From positions 1 through 64,000 of the forward strand of contig JAPUFB010000005.1 of NCBI GenBank assembly GCA_027492255.1: a stretch of 64,000 bases of DNA, written 5' to 3'. The DNA comes from Candidatus Saccharimonadota bacterium (GTDB lineage: Bacteria; Patescibacteriota; Saccharimonadia; Saccharimonadales; Saccharimonadaceae). The notes beneath the pieces are model-generated. The model did not search any database, was not told where the DNA came from, and saw only the letters and a program-made list of their open reading frames with translations. The position numbers were made by a program, and so were the translations under genes. How positions within the stretch are numbered: position 1 is the first letter of the stretch; each line of letters begins with the position of its first letter. Shown here one piece after another: positions 1 through 5,928 of the stretch.

Positions 1-153
1 CGCACCGTCCAGAAAACAATTCTTTTCAACTTCAAAAAAGAAATCTCGGCGGGGGAAATCTCAAAAATAATCAAAGAATTGTTTTTCTGGCGGGGCGGGC
101 GTTGTCCGCTCAGCAATTTTCCTCAAAATGGGTTCGAGCCTCGTTGTAGATAG
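1..153 (+). CDS. 3' end of an unidentified CDS (partial)
   Basis: Frame 1 is open from the first base to a TAG at 151-153, about 50 codons. The C-terminus ends in a GFEPR-like string of the kind seen when a recombinase reading frame runs over a tRNA T-arm or its remnant. The product cannot be identified from so short a tail. It lies immediately upstream of the left inverted-repeat arm and in the same orientation as the recombinase at 441. It may be the tail of another integrated-element gene, or a chance open frame. Confidence 0.3.
   Translation, partial: RTVQKTILFNFKKEISAGEISKIIKELFFWRGGRCPLSNFPQNGFEPRCR
9..90. repeat. Short inverted repeat (9-25 / 73-90)
   Basis: CCAGAAAACAATTCTTT at 9-25 is matched in inverse orientation by AAAGAATTGTTTTTCTGG at 73-90, with one extra T/A pair. 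The two arms could form a hairpin with a 47-base loop. It lies inside the partial reading frame at the window edge, so it may be incidental, or it may be a protein-binding or recombination site linked to the mobile region downstream. Confidence 0.4.
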
Positions 154-154
154 A

Positions 155-289
155 CACCAAAAATGGACTAAAGTCAGAATTGTCGCCCGATAGGGCGGCT
201 TTTTCTTTGGCTTTGCGGAGCAAAAGCCAGATGTTCTTGGGGGGAAATGCAGTTGGGGCAGCCGTTGGCTGCGCCTTTTTGGTTTTTAG
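155..289 (+). repeat. Left arm of 135-bp perfect inverted repeat
   Basis: This 135-base segment is an exact reverse complement of 1836-1970, by base-by-base comparison. The two arms flank the serine recombinase gene. In the right arm the same sequence encodes the C-terminal region of the recombinase and abuts the 3' end of tRNA-Leu. In this left arm it is untranslated and carries terminator hairpins. Perfect identity over 135 bases implies recent duplication or ongoing homogenisation. Recombination between the arms would invert the interval 290-1835. Confidence 0.95.
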
Positions 290-307
290 CCGCCATAGGC
301 GGTTTTT
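182..307 (+). terminator. Three tandem terminator-like hairpins
   Basis: Three short GC-rich hairpins followed by T-runs read on the plus strand. They are 182-199 with T's at 200-204, 257-275 with T's at 276-280, and 290-302 with T's at 303-307. They would isolate the recombinase promoter region from upstream transcription. The first two are inside the inverted repeat and therefore recur on the minus strand after tRNA-Leu. Confidence 0.65.
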
Positions 308-321
308 GTTTGGTAAAATGG

Positions 322-425
322 TAGTGCAACCAACTTACAGGAAACTTTTTTATTTGTGCGGGCTTTAATGGCCGTCTTGGACAATTTAGGTTTCCTAAGT
401 TGGTTGCACCAAGACGGTCATTTAA
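322..425. repeat. Nested inverted repeats upstream of the recombinase
   Basis: GTGCAACCAACTTA at 322-335 is mirrored by TAAGTTGGTTGCAC near 395-408. Inside and around it, CCGTCTTGG near 371-380 is mirrored by CCAAGACGG near 409-418. Together they form an interlocking palindromic region just before the recombinase start at 441. Such arrays are typical of regulator or recombinase binding sites. They could also fold into a leader RNA. Function is inferred only from position. Confidence 0.5.
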
Positions 426-440
426 GTTCAAGGGGGTGCT

Positions 441-2078
441 ATGAGTGAAAAATATTATCTATACGCCAGAAAATCTACTGACGTAGAGGACAAACAAGTA
501 TTGTCCATTGAGGCGCAACTCGTTGAGTTGCGAGAATATGCCAAACGAGAAAGTTTGCATATTGCCGCCGAGTTTGTAGAGAAAAAGTCCGCCAAAACAA
601 CAGGCAGACCCATATTTGGCAAGTTGTTAGCTGAAATAGAGAAAAACGGCGGCAATATTCTGGCGTGGCACCCAGATAGACTGGCTAGAAATAGTGTGGA
701 CGGTGGACAGATTATCTATTTACTAGACAGCGGACAACTCGGCACGCTCAAGTTCCCTAGTTTTTGGTTTGAGAACACTAGTCAGGGCAAGTTTATGCTG
801 TCCATCGCTTTCGGACAGAGCAAATACTATGTAGATAACCTGTCTGAAAATACCAAACGAGGTTTGCGCCAAAAAGTCAGACGGGGCGAACGCCCTGGAC
901 TTGCACCTGTTGGCTATATCAACGACGTACGGACAAAAACAGTTGTCGTAGACAAACGGCGTTCGCCGATTGTCATTGAGGCTTTTGCGTTGTACGCCAA
1001 AGGCGATCAACGGCTTGAAGATATCGCTAGTTTTTTAGCCAGTAAGGGAATACTAACGAAATCTGGCAAACAGTTTCCGAAAGATAAAATTAAGCGCATG
1101 CTAACCAATCCATTTTATTACGGACATTTCCGTTATTTTGGCGAGATACACGAGGGCAATCATACAGCAATTATGAGCAAGAAACTGTTTGACCAAGTAC
1201 AGGTCACACTTGCAAAGCGTGGACGACCACAAAAGGGCGCAACTGCGCCGCAAATCTTTTGCGGTTTACTGCGCTGTGCAACCTGTAATCTAGCCATAAC
1301 TGCCGAAAAGAAAGTTAAACACCAAAAGAACGGCAACACCCACGAATACGTTTATTACCGTTGCACAAGAAAGCACAAAACAATTCTTTGCACCCAGCCA
1401 GCAGTAACCGAACCAGACCTAGCAATACAGCTCACAGACATTTTGCATAGCTGCGCTATGCCCAAGAGTTGGGCGGAACAACTGGAAAGAATGCTTGCTG
1501 CTGACGAAAAGAAAGCAGAACAAAGTTCTGGTGTGTTTGTAGCTAACGCACAAACACGACTTGTGAGCTTGCAGGGCAAGCTCCAGCGACTTTTAGACGG
1601 CTATTTAGACCAAGATATTGAGCAGACTGTCTATCACACCAAGCAAGCCGAACTAATGAGCGAAAAGAAGTCGCTGGAGGAGCAAGTCAGCAAGCTCACG
1701 CTTGCCAGCGCAGCTTGGGTTGAACCTATGCGCCAGTGGCTCAAACAAGCCTCTGACCTCAATACAATTGCAGAAAGTGGCGAGCATAGTGGTATAAAGT
1801 CAGCTTTTCTTGAAATGGATGGATTGAACCTGTTTCTAAAAACCAAAAAGGCGCAGCCAACGGCTGCCCCAACTGCATTTCCCCCCAAGAACATCTGGCT
1901 TTTGCTCCGCAAAGCCAAAGAAAAAGCCGCCCTATCGGGCGACAATTCTGACTTTAGTCCATTTTTGGTGCGCGAGAGAGGACTTGAACCTCCACGCCCG
2001 AAGGCATTAGCTCCTAAGGCTAACGTGTATACCAATTTCACCACTCGCGCATATATGTTTGTATGGTTCAAGGATTAA
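441..2078 (+). CDS. Large serine recombinase (site-specific integrase/transposase)
   Basis: A DNA recombinase that would cut and religate att sites through a 5'-phosphoserine intermediate. Residues 5-150 form the resolvase domain, with the YARKS motif placing the nucleophile at Ser12. A recombinase domain follows at about 165-265. A zinc ribbon at about 274-316 has paired cysteines (LRCATC, then YRCT and LCTQP), and a coiled-coil-rich segment covers about 370-430. The start ATG at 441 has GGGGG upstream as a plausible ribosome site. From about residue 466 the frame runs through the right inverted-repeat arm, and from about 509 antisense through tRNA-Leu. The last ~80 residues are therefore encoded by repeat and tRNA DNA. 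This layout suggests integration at the tRNA gene. Confidence 0.9.
   Translation: MSEKYYLYARKSTDVEDKQVLSIEAQLVELREYAKRESLHIAAEFVEKKSAKTTGRPIFGKLLAEIEKNGGNILAWHPDRLARNSVDGGQIIYLLDSGQLGTLKFPSFWFENTSQGKFMLSIAFGQSKYYVDNLSENTKRGLRQKVRRGERPGLAPVGYINDVRTKTVVVDKRRSPIVIEAFALYAKGDQRLEDIASFLASKGILTKSGKQFPKDKIKRMLTNPFYYGHFRYFGEIHEGNHTAIMSKKLFDQVQVTLAKRGRPQKGATAPQIFCGLLRCATCNLAITAEKKVKHQKNGNTHEYVYYRCTRKHKTILCTQPAVTEPDLAIQLTDILHSCAMPKSWAEQLERMLAADEKKAEQSSGVFVANAQTRLVSLQGKLQRLLDGYLDQDIEQTVYHTKQAELMSEKKSLEEQVSKLTLASAAWVEPMRQWLKQASDLNTIAESGEHSGIKSAFLEMDGLNLFLKTKKAQPTAAPTAFPPKNIWLLLRKAKEKAALSGDNSDFSPFLVRERGLEPPRPKALAPKANVYTNFTTRAYMFVWFKD
1836..1970 (-). repeat. Right arm of 135-bp perfect inverted repeat
   Basis: Exact reverse complement of 155-289. 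It is translated in the recombinase frame (residues about 466-510) and also contains, on the minus strand, the sequence directly 3' of tRNA-Leu including its encoded CCA. The repeat therefore ends at the tRNA 3' terminus, as expected if that terminus is a recombination boundary. Confidence 0.95.
1921..1943 (-). terminator. Terminator downstream of tRNA-Leu
   Basis: On the minus strand a seven-base-pair stem (GTCGCCC/GGGCGGC) with a GATA loop is followed by TTTTTC. It begins about 24 bases after the tRNA-Leu CCA end. A second hairpin with a T-run follows at 1845-1868. Both are embedded in the recombinase coding sequence on the opposite strand. Confidence 0.7.
1966..2050 (-). tRNA. tRNA-Leu (anticodon UAG), CCA encoded
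   Basis: The minus strand folds as a class II tRNA. The acceptor stem is GCGCGAG/CTCGCGC, and the D-arm is GTG...CAC. The anticodon stem TTAGC/GCTAA has loop CTTAGGA, giving anticodon UAG. A long variable arm TGCCTTCGGGCGT and T-arm GGAGG-TTCAAGT-CCTCT follow, then discriminator A and CCA (1966-1968). The 3' half is overlapped antisense by the recombinase frame. The inverted repeat begins at the CCA end, so this tRNA is probably the element's attachment target. It should still be functional because all stems are intact. Confidence 0.92.
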
Positions 2079-2082
2079 TTAT

Positions 2083-2241
2083 AGAGGACTTAGTCACGTT
2101 CCGCGACCCCCGAACTTCGCGATTGAAAGCACAGCTTTCATCGGAAGATTCGTTTCCGAAGTGCCACTGGCACTTCTCACCTCCACGCCTACAGTACTAG
2201 CCTTAAGGCTAACCTCGTATACCAATTTCACCACTCGCGCA
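2083..2241 (-). pseudogene. Decayed second tRNA-Leu copy, split in the T-arm
   Basis: The 5' half of tRNA-Leu recurs here on the minus strand. A 29-base exact direct repeat at 2217-2245 matches 2027-2055 and covers the acceptor 5' strand and D-arm. An anticodon-stem-like TTAGC CTTAAG GCTAG follows, and then CCTCC in the T-arm position. The D-stem pairing is broken and the T-arm is interrupted. A remnant matching the T-arm 3' part (AGAGGACTT) reappears only at 2083-2091. Between the two lie palindromes GAAGTGCCACTGGCACTTC (about 2159-2177) and GAAAGC/GCTTTC. It looks like an attachment-site scar rather than a working tRNA. Confidence 0.6.
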
Positions 2242-2276
2242 TATACCCCTATAAGTATAAACAAAGATGGGGTAAA

Positions 2277-2296
2277 TAAAAAGACGTGATAACGTC
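2277..2296 (-). terminator. Rho-independent terminator
   Basis: On the minus strand GACGTTATCACGTC forms a short stem followed by TTTTTATTT. It lies downstream of rsmD and of the long hairpin at 2303-2385, and would end transcription before the tRNA-Leu region. Confidence 0.7.
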
Positions 2297-2302
2297 CAAG
2301 GT

Positions 2303-2406
2303 GTTAGGAGAGGTAGTGCCGCTACTCCGAACTTTAGATTGTCCACCACAACAACTCCATTGACGGTCGGCACTAACTCCCTAACTACTTATGATAGTAC
2401 CATAAG
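2303..2406 (-). ncRNA. Structured RNA candidate or rsmD 3' UTR
   Basis: GTTAGGAGAGGTAGTGCCG (2303-2321) is nearly the reverse complement of CGGCACTAACTCCCTAAC (2368-2385). This gives an 18-19 bp stem with a small bulge and a 46-base apical loop. A second hairpin CTTATG/CATAAG sits at about 2388-2406, on the rsmD side. A U-tract terminator follows the long hairpin at 2277-2296. There is no convincing reading frame. It could be a small RNA with its own terminator or a folded 3' UTR of the rsmD operon. It does not match the SRP, RNase P or tmRNA core motifs that I know. Confidence 0.45.
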
Positions 2407-2432
2407 CCCTATCGTTTTGAAAAGACTTATTT

Positions 2433-2972
2433 TTAAGAGACAGTATGGTAAAAATGCAGACTTGCGCCGGCATATTCTCTTACGTCATCACATATAAGAC
2501 CATCGAGCGCGATCGTGGCGTGGGTAACAGGCAGTGAAAGTACCAGCCGTCCATTGTGTGCCACATGTTTCGCAAGTCGCCGTAGACTTGCTTCTTGTAA
2601 ATCATGATAGGGCGGATCAACAAAAATAAGATCAAAACTGTCGCCCGTAGCCGATTCATCCCAAGTCGCAACACTCCCTGCGAAAAGGGTTGCGCAATCT
2701 CCCACCTTTAAAAGTTCAATATTTTCCCTAATCACACGTCCTGCGACACGGTCCTTTTCGATAAAGAGTGCCCTCGAGGCACCGCGGCTTAGTGCTTCAA
2801 ACCCTAGCGAGCCAGTACCGGCAAATGCGTCCAGTACCGTACAGTCTGATATATCGCCAAGAATATTAAACAGCGCTCCGCGCTGCCGCTCCCCCATTGG
2901 ATGAGTGACGTGTCCGCGCGGTGCTTGCAAGAAACGACCACCAAAATGACCGGAAATAAGTCGGATGTTCAT
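2433..2972 (-). CDS. rsmD: 16S rRNA (guanine966-N2)-methyltransferase RsmD-like
   Basis: A SAM-dependent methyltransferase expected to modify 16S rRNA in the small-subunit head. Motifs seen are the N-terminal RLISGHFGGR and MGERQRGALFNIL segments, SAM motif I LDAFAGTGSLGFEALSRGA and the catalytic motif IV VDPPYH. I chose the Met at 2972, giving 180 residues, because the typical RsmD N-terminus begins there and the ATG overlaps the upstream stop in an ATGA junction. The longer frame to 3020 lies inside the upstream gene. The four-base overlap implies translational coupling to the phospholipase-like gene. Confidence 0.9.
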   Translation of the reverse strand: MNIRLISGHFGGRFLQAPRGHVTHPMGERQRGALFNILGDISDCTVLDAFAGTGSLGFEALSRGASRALFIEKDRVAGRVIRENIELLKVGDCATLFAGSVATWDESATGDSFDLIFVDPPYHDLQEASLRRLAKHVAHNGRLVLSLPVTHATIALDGLICDDVREYAGASLHFYHTVS

Positions 2973-3799
2973 ACAGCACCTTTCTTTTGTTTTCGTGACT
3001 CTTCGTACGCGGCATACCATACAAGCGTCACAGTTTTAATGATCAGCGGCATCAGATCTTTCCGCACACCACTAGCCATCGAACGTGTCCAGCCTCTTTT
3101 CTTGTAGCGCGTATACAGATCAAGTGACACGACATGTAGAAGCGCCTCATGAAACAGTACCTCAAATCCTTCTTGTCGTACTCGTATAAGATCATTTCCT
3201 GTCGGCTGGGCAGTATCAAACCTCAGAGCCTTAATTGTCGACGCAACACCGGCCTCAAACAGCGTATGGGTAGTCATAACACCGCCTGCACCCCAGTGTT
3301 CCCAATTATTTTTCACAAATTGTTTCGTCGATCCATCGCTTGGAATGATGAGTCGGCTACGAACAGTCTTTTTTTCTTCAGTTCTCTCTCGTAGTAGTGT
3401 GAAAGCCTCTTCTTCTGGTTCATGATGCGCTGGTGTTAGTCCGTCAACAATTGCATGCGACAACCACGCCGCCTCGAATCCGGCCCGGACGGAATCCTTT
3501 TTTGCGAGGGCCGTTACAAGATTACGATAATGGGCCCTAATATCCCTGAGTAGCGACACATCCGACGGATCTTTTGGATTAATAAAGTGCCAGGGCTCAT
3601 CAACACCGGGACTTTTAAGCTTCACTCCATCGGGTCCGTTTATTCCCTCAAATCTTAAAATCATTTTTATATCTGGAAAAGATGAACCTGTCTTGAAAAC
3701 AGCATCAAAATGACGTTTTGCAACACGATCGATTTTCTGATGCGCACCAACAATACGGCCAGATTTGCCTACTTTAGGGAGTGGTCCGAAGGAGTACAT
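2969..3799 (-). CDS. Zinc phospholipase C / S1-P1 nuclease-like protein
   Basis: A 276-residue protein without a clear signal peptide. Residues 115-125 have the spacing H-x3-D-x5-H (in WLSHAIVDGLTPAH) that forms the trinuclear zinc site in bacterial phospholipase C and P1 nucleases. An upstream PWHFINP element at about 69-75 resembles the HFYDP segment of that fold. His20 and the HEPEEE region could add ligands. Its stop overlaps the rsmD start, so both are co-translated. Family membership is inferred from these motifs. Substrate is unknown, and lack of a secretion signal makes a classical exported lipase less certain. Confidence 0.55.
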   Translation of the reverse strand: MYSFGPLPKVGKSGRIVGAHQKIDRVAKRHFDAVFKTGSSFPDIKMILRFEGINGPDGVKLKSPGVDEPWHFINPKDPSDVSLLRDIRAHYRNLVTALAKKDSVRAGFEAAWLSHAIVDGLTPAHHEPEEEAFTLLRERTEEKKTVRSRLIIPSDGSTKQFVKNNWEHWGAGGVMTTHTLFEAGVASTIKALRFDTAQPTGNDLIRVRQEGFEVLFHEALLHVVSLDLYTRYKKRGWTRSMASGVRKDLMPLIIKTVTLVWYAAYEESRKQKKGAV

Positions 3800-3867
3800 T
3801 GGTTAATTTAGCAGTAAAAACCCTGCTGTTTTCCCTTTAGAATTTTCATATCTTTATTAATTATAGC

Positions 3868-5928
3868 TTAGTTTAGCGCTGTAAGACGTCTATAGCGCTC
3901 AACCTCATCAGCAAGCTTCTTATACTCTTTAAGGTCAAGGTATCCCTCAACAAACCGAGGTGCGACGCGACGAACTTTCTTTAAAAGTCGTAGGTCGTTG
4001 ATATTGGCAATCTTAAGATCTAAGGCACCATGCTGAGCCCGTCCATAAATCTCTCCGGGACCACGAAGTTCGAGATCACGTTCAGCGAGATAAAAGCCGT
4101 CATTTGATTTCTCGAGTTCACGAAGACGCAGCGATGGGGCCTTACTAGTACTCGGTACAAGATAGCAGTAGCTCTGGAGCTCACTTCGACCTACTCGGCC
4201 ACGCAGCTGATGCAGCTGAGCAAGACCGAACGTATCAGCCGCCTCAATGATTATGACTGTCGCATTTGGAACATCAACGCCCACCTCTACAACCGTTGTG
4301 GAGACAAGAATATCGATATCACCTGACGCAAAACGTTCCATCACCTCCTGTTTCTCATCGGGCTTCAGTTTGCCGTGAAGCAGCCCGATACGACGATGCT
4401 TAAAGATGGAGTTCTGTAAACGCACATATTCGGCTTTTACGCTCTTGATTTCCGCATCCTCTGTATTACCCCTTGATTCTTGATATTTGCTGCTTGATGC
4501 TTCAATTAACGGACACACAACATAAACCTGACGACCAGCCTGAATTTCTTTTTCAACTTTTTCATACATCTGTGCCCTTGAATTAGGAGAGATAATTTCG
4601 GTCGTAATCGGTAAACGATTTTTTGGTTTCTCTCCTAGGATCGATATATCAAGCTCGCCATACACCGTTAGTTGCAGACTCCGCGGAATCGGAGTAGCGG
4701 TCATTGCAAGCAGGTGTGGCATTTTGTCGCTTTTTGTAAGAAGCTTTTGCCGCTGAGCTACACCAAAACGATGCTGCTCATCAATCACTACGAATCCAAG
4801 CTTATGGAATTTTACAGGGTCTTCGATTAATGCGTGTGTTCCAATAACAACCGATACGCTTCCGTCAGCAATGTGCGTGAAAAGTTCTCTTCTTGACTTA
4901 TTTTTCACGGATCCAGTGAGTAGCGCAACAGAAACCTCAAACGGCTCAAGAAGACGAGAGAGCGTTTCGGCATGCTGACGCGCGAGCAATTCGGTTGGAG
5001 CCATTATTGCTGATTGATACCCGTTACGAGCTGCAATATAAGCGACCAGCCCCGCGACAACAGTTTTACCGCTTCCGACGTCGCCTTGAAGCATCCGGTT
5101 CATCGGCTTATCGGCGGATAAATTTTGGATCGCCTCCCACGCCGCAAGCCGCTGCGCATTCGTCAGATCAAATGGAAGATTCTTCACAAAGGCCCGTGCA
5201 TCGGCCGCTGAAAATTCAATCATATGACTTGCAAGCGCGTCATTGTCCTCACGATTCTTAAGTGACGCAAGAACAAGCGATAATATTTCTTCGAATCCAA
5301 GTCTTTCGCGCGCTCGCTCGAGCGCTACGCTGTCATCAGGAAAATGTAACTGATAAAGGGCATCAGCATGACCCATTAGTTTTTCTTCCTTAACAATATC
5401 AATAGGCAACGTCTCCGGAAGAGACAGTATGAGCGGCTTTAATTCATTGAGCGTTTTACGAACCAGTACACTTTTAAGTCCGCGTGTTGCAGGATAGATA
5501 GGTACAATCCGCCCACCGTTCACACCTTCTCCATCGGTCATTTCCGCACTCGGGCTAACAATCTGATAATGATTACGCTGCAGGTTGAATTCACCGGACA
5601 CGAGAAATTCTTTCTCTGTCTTTAGTTGTGCCACTCTATACGCTTGATTAAACCAGACGACTTGGACTTTTCCAGTATCATCAAAGAGTGTCGCTTCTAC
5701 GACAGTCATGTTCCGACGAACGCGCTTTGAGCTGATATTTTCGAATCGACCCCGAACACTTACTCTGCCGGGCCGAATATCTCGAATTGACTGAACCCGT
5801 GAGAAGTCCTCGTAAATACGAGGAAAAAAATTAATCAAATCCTCAATTGTCTCTATACCTGCCTCACGGAACTGCTGTGCACTCTTGGGTCCAACGCCTT
5901 TGATGGTATCGATTGATCGCTCTAACAT
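3868..5928 (-). CDS. recG: ATP-dependent DNA helicase RecG
   Basis: Remodels stalled replication forks and branched DNA. At 686 residues it is normal length. It has an N-terminal helix-hairpin-helix-like segment (IDTIKGVGPKSA) and a wedge OB-fold at about 60-140. Walker A is GDVGSGKT at about 285, the DEAH-type box is VIDEQHRFG, and motif III is AMTATPIPRS. The C-terminal helicase motif is LRGRVGRS. A -10-like TATTAT lies nine bases before the ATG and no strong Shine-Dalgarno is seen. It is divergent from the unknown gene at 5999. Confidence 0.97.
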   Translation of the reverse strand: MLERSIDTIKGVGPKSAQQFREAGIETIEDLINFFPRIYEDFSRVQSIRDIRPGRVSVRGRFENISSKRVRRNMTVVEATLFDDTGKVQVVWFNQAYRVAQLKTEKEFLVSGEFNLQRNHYQIVSPSAEMTDGEGVNGGRIVPIYPATRGLKSVLVRKTLNELKPLILSLPETLPIDIVKEEKLMGHADALYQLHFPDDSVALERARERLGFEEILSLVLASLKNREDNDALASHMIEFSAADARAFVKNLPFDLTNAQRLAAWEAIQNLSADKPMNRMLQGDVGSGKTVVAGLVAYIAARNGYQSAIMAPTELLARQHAETLSRLLEPFEVSVALLTGSVKNKSRRELFTHIADGSVSVVIGTHALIEDPVKFHKLGFVVIDEQHRFGVAQRQKLLTKSDKMPHLLAMTATPIPRSLQLTVYGELDISILGEKPKNRLPITTEIISPNSRAQMYEKVEKEIQAGRQVYVVCPLIEASSSKYQESRGNTEDAEIKSVKAEYVRLQNSIFKHRRIGLLHGKLKPDEKQEVMERFASGDIDILVSTTVVEVGVDVPNATVIIIEAADTFGLAQLHQLRGRVGRSELQSYCYLVPSTSKAPSLRLRELEKSNDGFYLAERDLELRGPGEIYGRAQHGALDLKIANINDLRLLKKVRRVAPRFVEGYLDLKEYKKLADEVERYRRLTALN

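Follow-up and report, generated by a model that had tools for sequence, protein, structure and literature searches.

A putative two-segment integrative element of Patescibacteria whose serine recombinase gene exchanges its 3' end at a tRNA target

Introduction

The archaeal SSV-type "suicidal" integrases, tyrosine recombinases known from SSV1, pTN3, and pT26-2 (PMC8371274, PMC5495485), are the nearest known parallel to the elements described here. According to a 2021 review, self-disrupting recombinases occur exclusively in archaea (PMC8371274), and complete enzymes of related elements have been proposed to free the trapped archaeal copies (PMC8371274, PMC5495485). The elements of Patescibacteria (CPR) reported below resemble these systems in that the attachment site lies within the integrase gene and integration at a tRNA alters this gene, with a loss of activity that we infer for the CPR enzymes. 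They differ in using a serine recombinase in a bacterial host, in exchanging just the C-terminal tail while an inverted spare 3' end lies beside the gene, and in enclosing their cargo in an inverted repeat of its own. Since the SSV-type suicidal integrases have a tyrosine recombinase fold and we found serine recombinase domains only, the enzyme studied here falls outside that group.

A protein C terminus also changes in the integration-dependent immunity of mycobacteriophages: PMC9934374 (citing Broussard et al. 2013) describes an attP in a regulatory ORF, a C terminus changed by integration, and a repressor that sheds a degradation tag upon integration. In that account it is the repressor that is changed, whereas in the CPR elements it is the recombinase itself. 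The latter shares with the large serine integrases of phages and integrative elements the Resolvase, Recombinase, and zinc-ribbon domains and, presumably, the attP x attB chemistry. Unlike them, the CPR elements come without a recognized directionality factor (RDF), target many different tRNAs, and have two inverted attachment sites each. The yeast 2-micron plasmid, with its Flp/FRT system, is a circle with two inverted recombination sites and two unique regions (PMC5495485). The predicted circle of a CPR element would likewise have a pair of inverted recombination sites that separate two unique regions, but these elements integrate at tRNA genes, use a serine recombinase, and show no replication genes.

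We found no description of these elements in the open-access literature; one may exist in subscription journals or preprints. Here, another enzyme superfamily seems to undergo self-disruption at a tRNA, and in bacteria.

A serine recombinase between perfect inverted repeats

The first base of the window (the whole 64-kb stretch of DNA analyzed) is also that of contig G000:C5, in a genome of 854 kb, so the left flank is a contig end. A repeat search returned two arms of 135 nt each, at 155-289 and 1836-1970, which are 100% complementary and have 1546 nt between them, in agreement with the exact reverse complements described in an earlier sequence-only reading of this DNA. This pair is the longest exact inverted match of the entire window; the longest in 20 shuffles of positions 1-5000 was 15 nt. 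The same reading had the right arm double as recombinase coding sequence and as the 3' flank of tRNA-Leu, and the arm does consist of recombinase coding sequence followed by the final 5 bases of tRNA-Leu(TAG). The features are as follows, IR1 being the inner repeat and IR2 the repeat bounding the cargo segment.

1-159, minus strand: one copy of IR2, homologous to the left flanks of other elements
110-289, minus strand: spare inverted recombinase 3' end (left arm 155-289 plus tail codons 110-154), from translation across the arm and IR2
126-159, plus strand: conserved 34-bp half-site resembling a tRNA T-loop and CCA end, AAATGGGTTCGAGCCTCGTTGTAGATAGACACCA; putative attP half
155-289, plus strand: left arm of IR1; putative attP half, with a terminator at ~183-204
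313-440, plus strand: promoter-like TGGTAAAAT and long structured 5' leader of the recombinase
441-2078, plus strand: large serine recombinase (ORF; Pfam; phrog_95 integrase)
1836-1970, minus strand: right IR1 arm, adjoining the tRNA; putative attL, with a terminator at ~1921-1942
1966-2050, minus strand: tRNA-Leu(TAG), the integration target (ARAGORN; Rfam RF00005, 1.8e-11)

This region is probably one half, the one with the recombinase, of a two-segment integrative element, in which integration would swap the tail of the enzyme and most likely disable it, and in which inversion, or the enzyme of another element, could restore it.

The ORF at 441-2078 encodes a protein of 545 amino acids with the Pfam domains Resolvase (PF00239; 1.1e-21), Recombinase (PF07508; 8.9e-16), and Zn_ribbon_recom (PF13408; 3e-07), all passing the cutoff. 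It matches the phrog_95 integrase at 1.1e-72, and its catalytic motif Y.RKS (Y10, R12, K13, and S14) is invariant across 34 homologues. The element-encoded part stops at ~1969; the final ~36 codons come from the antisense strand of tRNA-Leu and from sequence beyond it. Close relatives of the recombinase are from Saccharibacteria; phage and plasmid collections yielded only remote ones, the closest being ~22 to 28% identical among the matches listed, and no free relatives were found in IMG/VR. An alignment of elements revealed a conserved GGTAtAAT-like block ahead of the gene, and the leader at 322-440 folds strongly (MFE of -43 kcal/mol; z of -4.7), suggesting translational or transcriptional control.

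A conserved two-segment architecture in CPR bacteria

Homologue searches revealed in other genomes an inverted copy of recombinase codons ~466 to 510, located about 150 bp 5' of the gene. A census drawn from homologues of the window's single recombinase, which required the inner inverted repeat to reach 60 bp and 75% identity, showed the same architecture in 79 distinct elements from Saccharibacteria and other Patescibacteria, including Microgenomates and Parcubacteria. Several genomes carry more than one element. The identity of the inner repeat has a median of 97.5% over the 79 elements (25 are perfect), and 146 of the 158 arms match their own partner better than any other arm (the window's two arms share 100% identity, compared with 83% for the next-best arm). 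The repeat is therefore old yet kept homogeneous. A very recent duplication of an attachment end, one of the initial proposals, was right in that the left arm is a second copy of this end, but an arrangement shared by 79 elements is not recent. Nor is the second arm a misassembly, the refutation once envisaged, since the structure recurs within the single-contig genomes G017, G204, and G321.

The limits initially drawn (155-1970) were too narrow, as the element reaches left of position 155 into a second, cargo-bearing segment. Of 28 chosen genomes, 22 contained the 34-bp half-site pattern, usually in inverted pairs, and the reversed control gave 0 matches. The half-site adjoins the left arm on its left and is found again, inverted, at a greater distance on that side, which gives rise to IR2 (107 to 251 bp, with a median identity of 100%, in 22 complete elements). 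The layout of a full element is tRNA / arm-recombinase-arm / CCA-repeat2-cargo-repeat2 / tRNA terminator: two segments, each enclosed by its own near-identical inverted repeat, spanning together 3.0 to 10.3 kb. The left-flank homologue of window positions 1-159 in other elements is the right-hand copy of this IR2, placing the start of contig G000:C5 at or near the inner edge of the repeat. The cargo is absent from the window because the contig begins inside IR2, and neither the partner copy nor the cargo was found elsewhere in the window's own genome assembly. The elements explain CPR contig breaks at such sites.

That both repeats stay nearly identical would also fit a role in copy-number amplification or replication of a circle, as in the yeast 2-micron plasmid, with the exchange of the recombinase tail (see below) as a by-product. 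A two-segment circle would have two inverted attachment sites parting two unique regions, as this explanation asks. However, no replication gene was recognized in the cargo scanned and no circular contig was seen, which makes it improbable.

Fixed orientation at tRNA genes

On the gene-end side, 60 of the 79 elements directly abut the 3' end of a tRNA, and none does so on the other side. The targets cover 21 anticodons, so these elements offer serine integrases spanning a wide range of tRNA targets. The recombinase gene points toward the abutting tRNA in all 60 cases and away from it in none. This bears on the invertible cassette of the sequence-only reading, a phase-variation device in which the recombinase would freely flip its own gene between two C termini. 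The perfect inverted arms, the attachment core at each end, and the different C termini of the two orientations are what such a cassette would have, but a single orientation in 60 of 60 elements leaves free inversion unsupported. Moreover, inversion would have to take place between an attL and an attP site, a pair that large serine integrases do not normally recombine unless a helper is present. We regard the cassette as quite unlikely and retain the two-segment integrative element.

Outward of the far half-site, most complete elements have a terminator hairpin 0 to 3 nt past the CCA, the pattern expected of the original region downstream of the tRNA. The element thus separates the tRNA from its terminator; the arm brings a replacement terminator, which in the window (~1921-1942, in the right arm) stands downstream of tRNA-Leu. 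Where the outer ends can be resolved, one is the tRNA CCA, or a remnant of it, and the opposite one is the half-site, and neither target duplications nor scattered sites were found among these elements. Such ends contradict the idea that the first segment is an insertion-sequence-like transposon that landed there by chance; a single recombinase gene between terminal inverted repeats is what invites this idea, to which we give hardly any credence.

Genome G322 has the same tRNA-Arg as the occupied site of G019, with both flanking genes syntenic (their proteins mostly 93 to 100% identical) and without the element, although ~0.7 kb of differing sequence blurs the exact junction. A search with joined flanks for an empty site matched G375 and others as tRNA plus terminator, with terminator sequences that differ. 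At locus L043, a second element is inserted at the half-site of a first, giving a nested pair.

Next to the target, the window contains a broken tRNA-Leu(TAA) (2085-2245, minus strand) whose T-loop is interrupted by an insertion of ~105 nt. Contig G000:C2 (L213) terminates in another copy, which has a compensatory change in the stem. The insertion may be a tRNA intron; Rfam gave no intron match, group I included, in window positions 1-2500. In a genome of the same genus (G001, locus L202), the gene order is SpoU, tRNA-Leu(TAG), nadD, (rsmD), and recG. Compared with this locus, the tRNA in window positions 1966-3800 points the opposite way and the assembly lacks a clear nadD ortholog, which suggests a rearrangement or a gap at the contig end.

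Exchange of the recombinase tail

The CCA crossover point, which in the window would be the 3' CCA of tRNA-Leu(TAG) at 1966-1968, lies within the recombinase gene, about 16 codons ahead of its natural stop. As assembled, the frame crosses the CCA core and then runs antisense through the tRNA. Continued from the arm into the half-site, the arrangement of the inverted or circular state, the same frame instead closes with a conserved tail, LVSIYNEARTHFEENC* in the window, whose natural tail codons at 110-154 read LV-SIYNEARTHFEENC-stop. The tail motif [YF]..[AIVC]RT.[FM] is present in 61 of the 79 elements in the arm/half-site frame, in 0 as assembled, and in 1 to 3 in the remaining two frames. 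The half-site thus doubles as the natural 3' terminus of the recombinase gene and as an attachment half. The early proposal that inversion would swap the C terminus of the recombinase holds, the alternative end being the family-conserved one. The nested element of L043 naturally keeps its tail (RFYAHARTHFSTKCEK; scored as natural under a slightly different motif and frame rule), because it is inserted into the half-site of another element. In the AlphaFold2 model of this sole natural tail-intact recombinase, the last ~50 residues have a pLDDT below 50 and are uninformative on the tail.

The half-site sequences GGTTC and GTA are nearly invariant, third codon positions included, and the conservation of the tail could partly reflect constraint on the half-site as DNA. 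Pooled codon variants over the half-site were 13 synonymous and 55 nonsynonymous in the coding frame, against 4 to 11 and 52 to 62 in the other frames. This is only a slight synonymous excess, and the case for coding therefore relies on the motif test across phyla. Taken to its end, constraint on DNA would mean that the tail codons are conserved only as attachment sequence, that the protein tail is dispensable, and that the integrated recombinase is active and excises normally. The resemblance of the invariant blocks to a tRNA T-loop speaks for this, as does the lack of a stop codon ahead of the arm in most integrated ORFs. Against it, frame, stop, and amino acid pattern are kept across phyla while Arg (AGA/CGA) and Ala (GCN) codons vary synonymously. 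We consider this alternative unlikely, though less so than the cassette or the 2-micron-like circle, and favor a tail that matters to the enzyme.

A model for integration and release

The anatomy, the tRNA target, the tail swap, the fixed orientation, and the diversity of the cargo can be read from the assemblies themselves; the steps that would connect them form the model below. A circular intermediate comprising both segments would have two attP sites in inverted orientation. The element would insert between the 3' CCA of a tRNA and the terminator of that tRNA by a crossover at the CCA between tRNA/terminator (attB) and arm/half-site (attP), which accounts for every junction of the standard elements. 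The intact attachment site (arm/CCA/IR2 half-site) encodes the natural C-terminal end of the recombinase. Integration through the gene-end site would give the observed orientation and exchange the tail for antisense tRNA codons, while integration through the upstream attP copy, never seen among the elements, would spare the gene.

Loss of the tail most likely disables the enzyme, which would protect a chromosome that has a spare intact attachment site beside many tRNA targets. Most simply, the enzyme would need its tail for activity, and an integrated, tail-intact enzyme would be purged or flipped to the locked state. The left arm and tail codons kept upstream of the gene form a spare inverted 3' end, and inversion across the 135-bp arms, or the complete recombinase of another element, could restore activity and release the element. 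This spare gene end suggests how self-disrupting elements could leave again. More tentatively, and with somewhat less than even confidence, we propose CPR-wide cargo elements with a self-amputating serine integrase that is locked off at the tRNA and reactivated by rare inversion of the arms, like a latch. If this is true, the elements move defense and metabolic genes among CPR bacteria.

Cargo of the second segment

The 22 complete elements carry 0.9 to 8.0 kb of cargo, which was different in every element examined. Examples are Peptidase_S58 with NUDIX, Peptidase_S51 with a 2'-5' RNA ligase-like protein, an alcohol dehydrogenase, HD with a methyltransferase, TetR with a dehydrogenase, leucyl-tRNA synthetase with a class II synthetase-like protein, and a type II restriction-modification system with a PDC-S06 ATPase. 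No RDF was recognized among the element genes found. These compact elements bring varied cargo, including restriction-modification, to CPR bacteria, whose gene exchange routes are poorly known. The largest complete cargo (8 kb; L127, 5393-13880) is the one with the two synthetases, on an element that itself targets a tRNA.

Cargo modules without the first segment were found at L177 (3324-7068) and L179 (4567-4720), in the order half-site, CCA, tRNA terminator hairpin, TGG, and tRNA. At L177 this order occurs on both sides, with one tRNA-Ser intact and the other degenerate. These modules are possibly nonautonomous derivatives. Outside the IR2 of L180, the half-site leads into a hairpin in which the outermost ~33 bp of two arms are fused; it appears to be the remnant of a deleted first segment.
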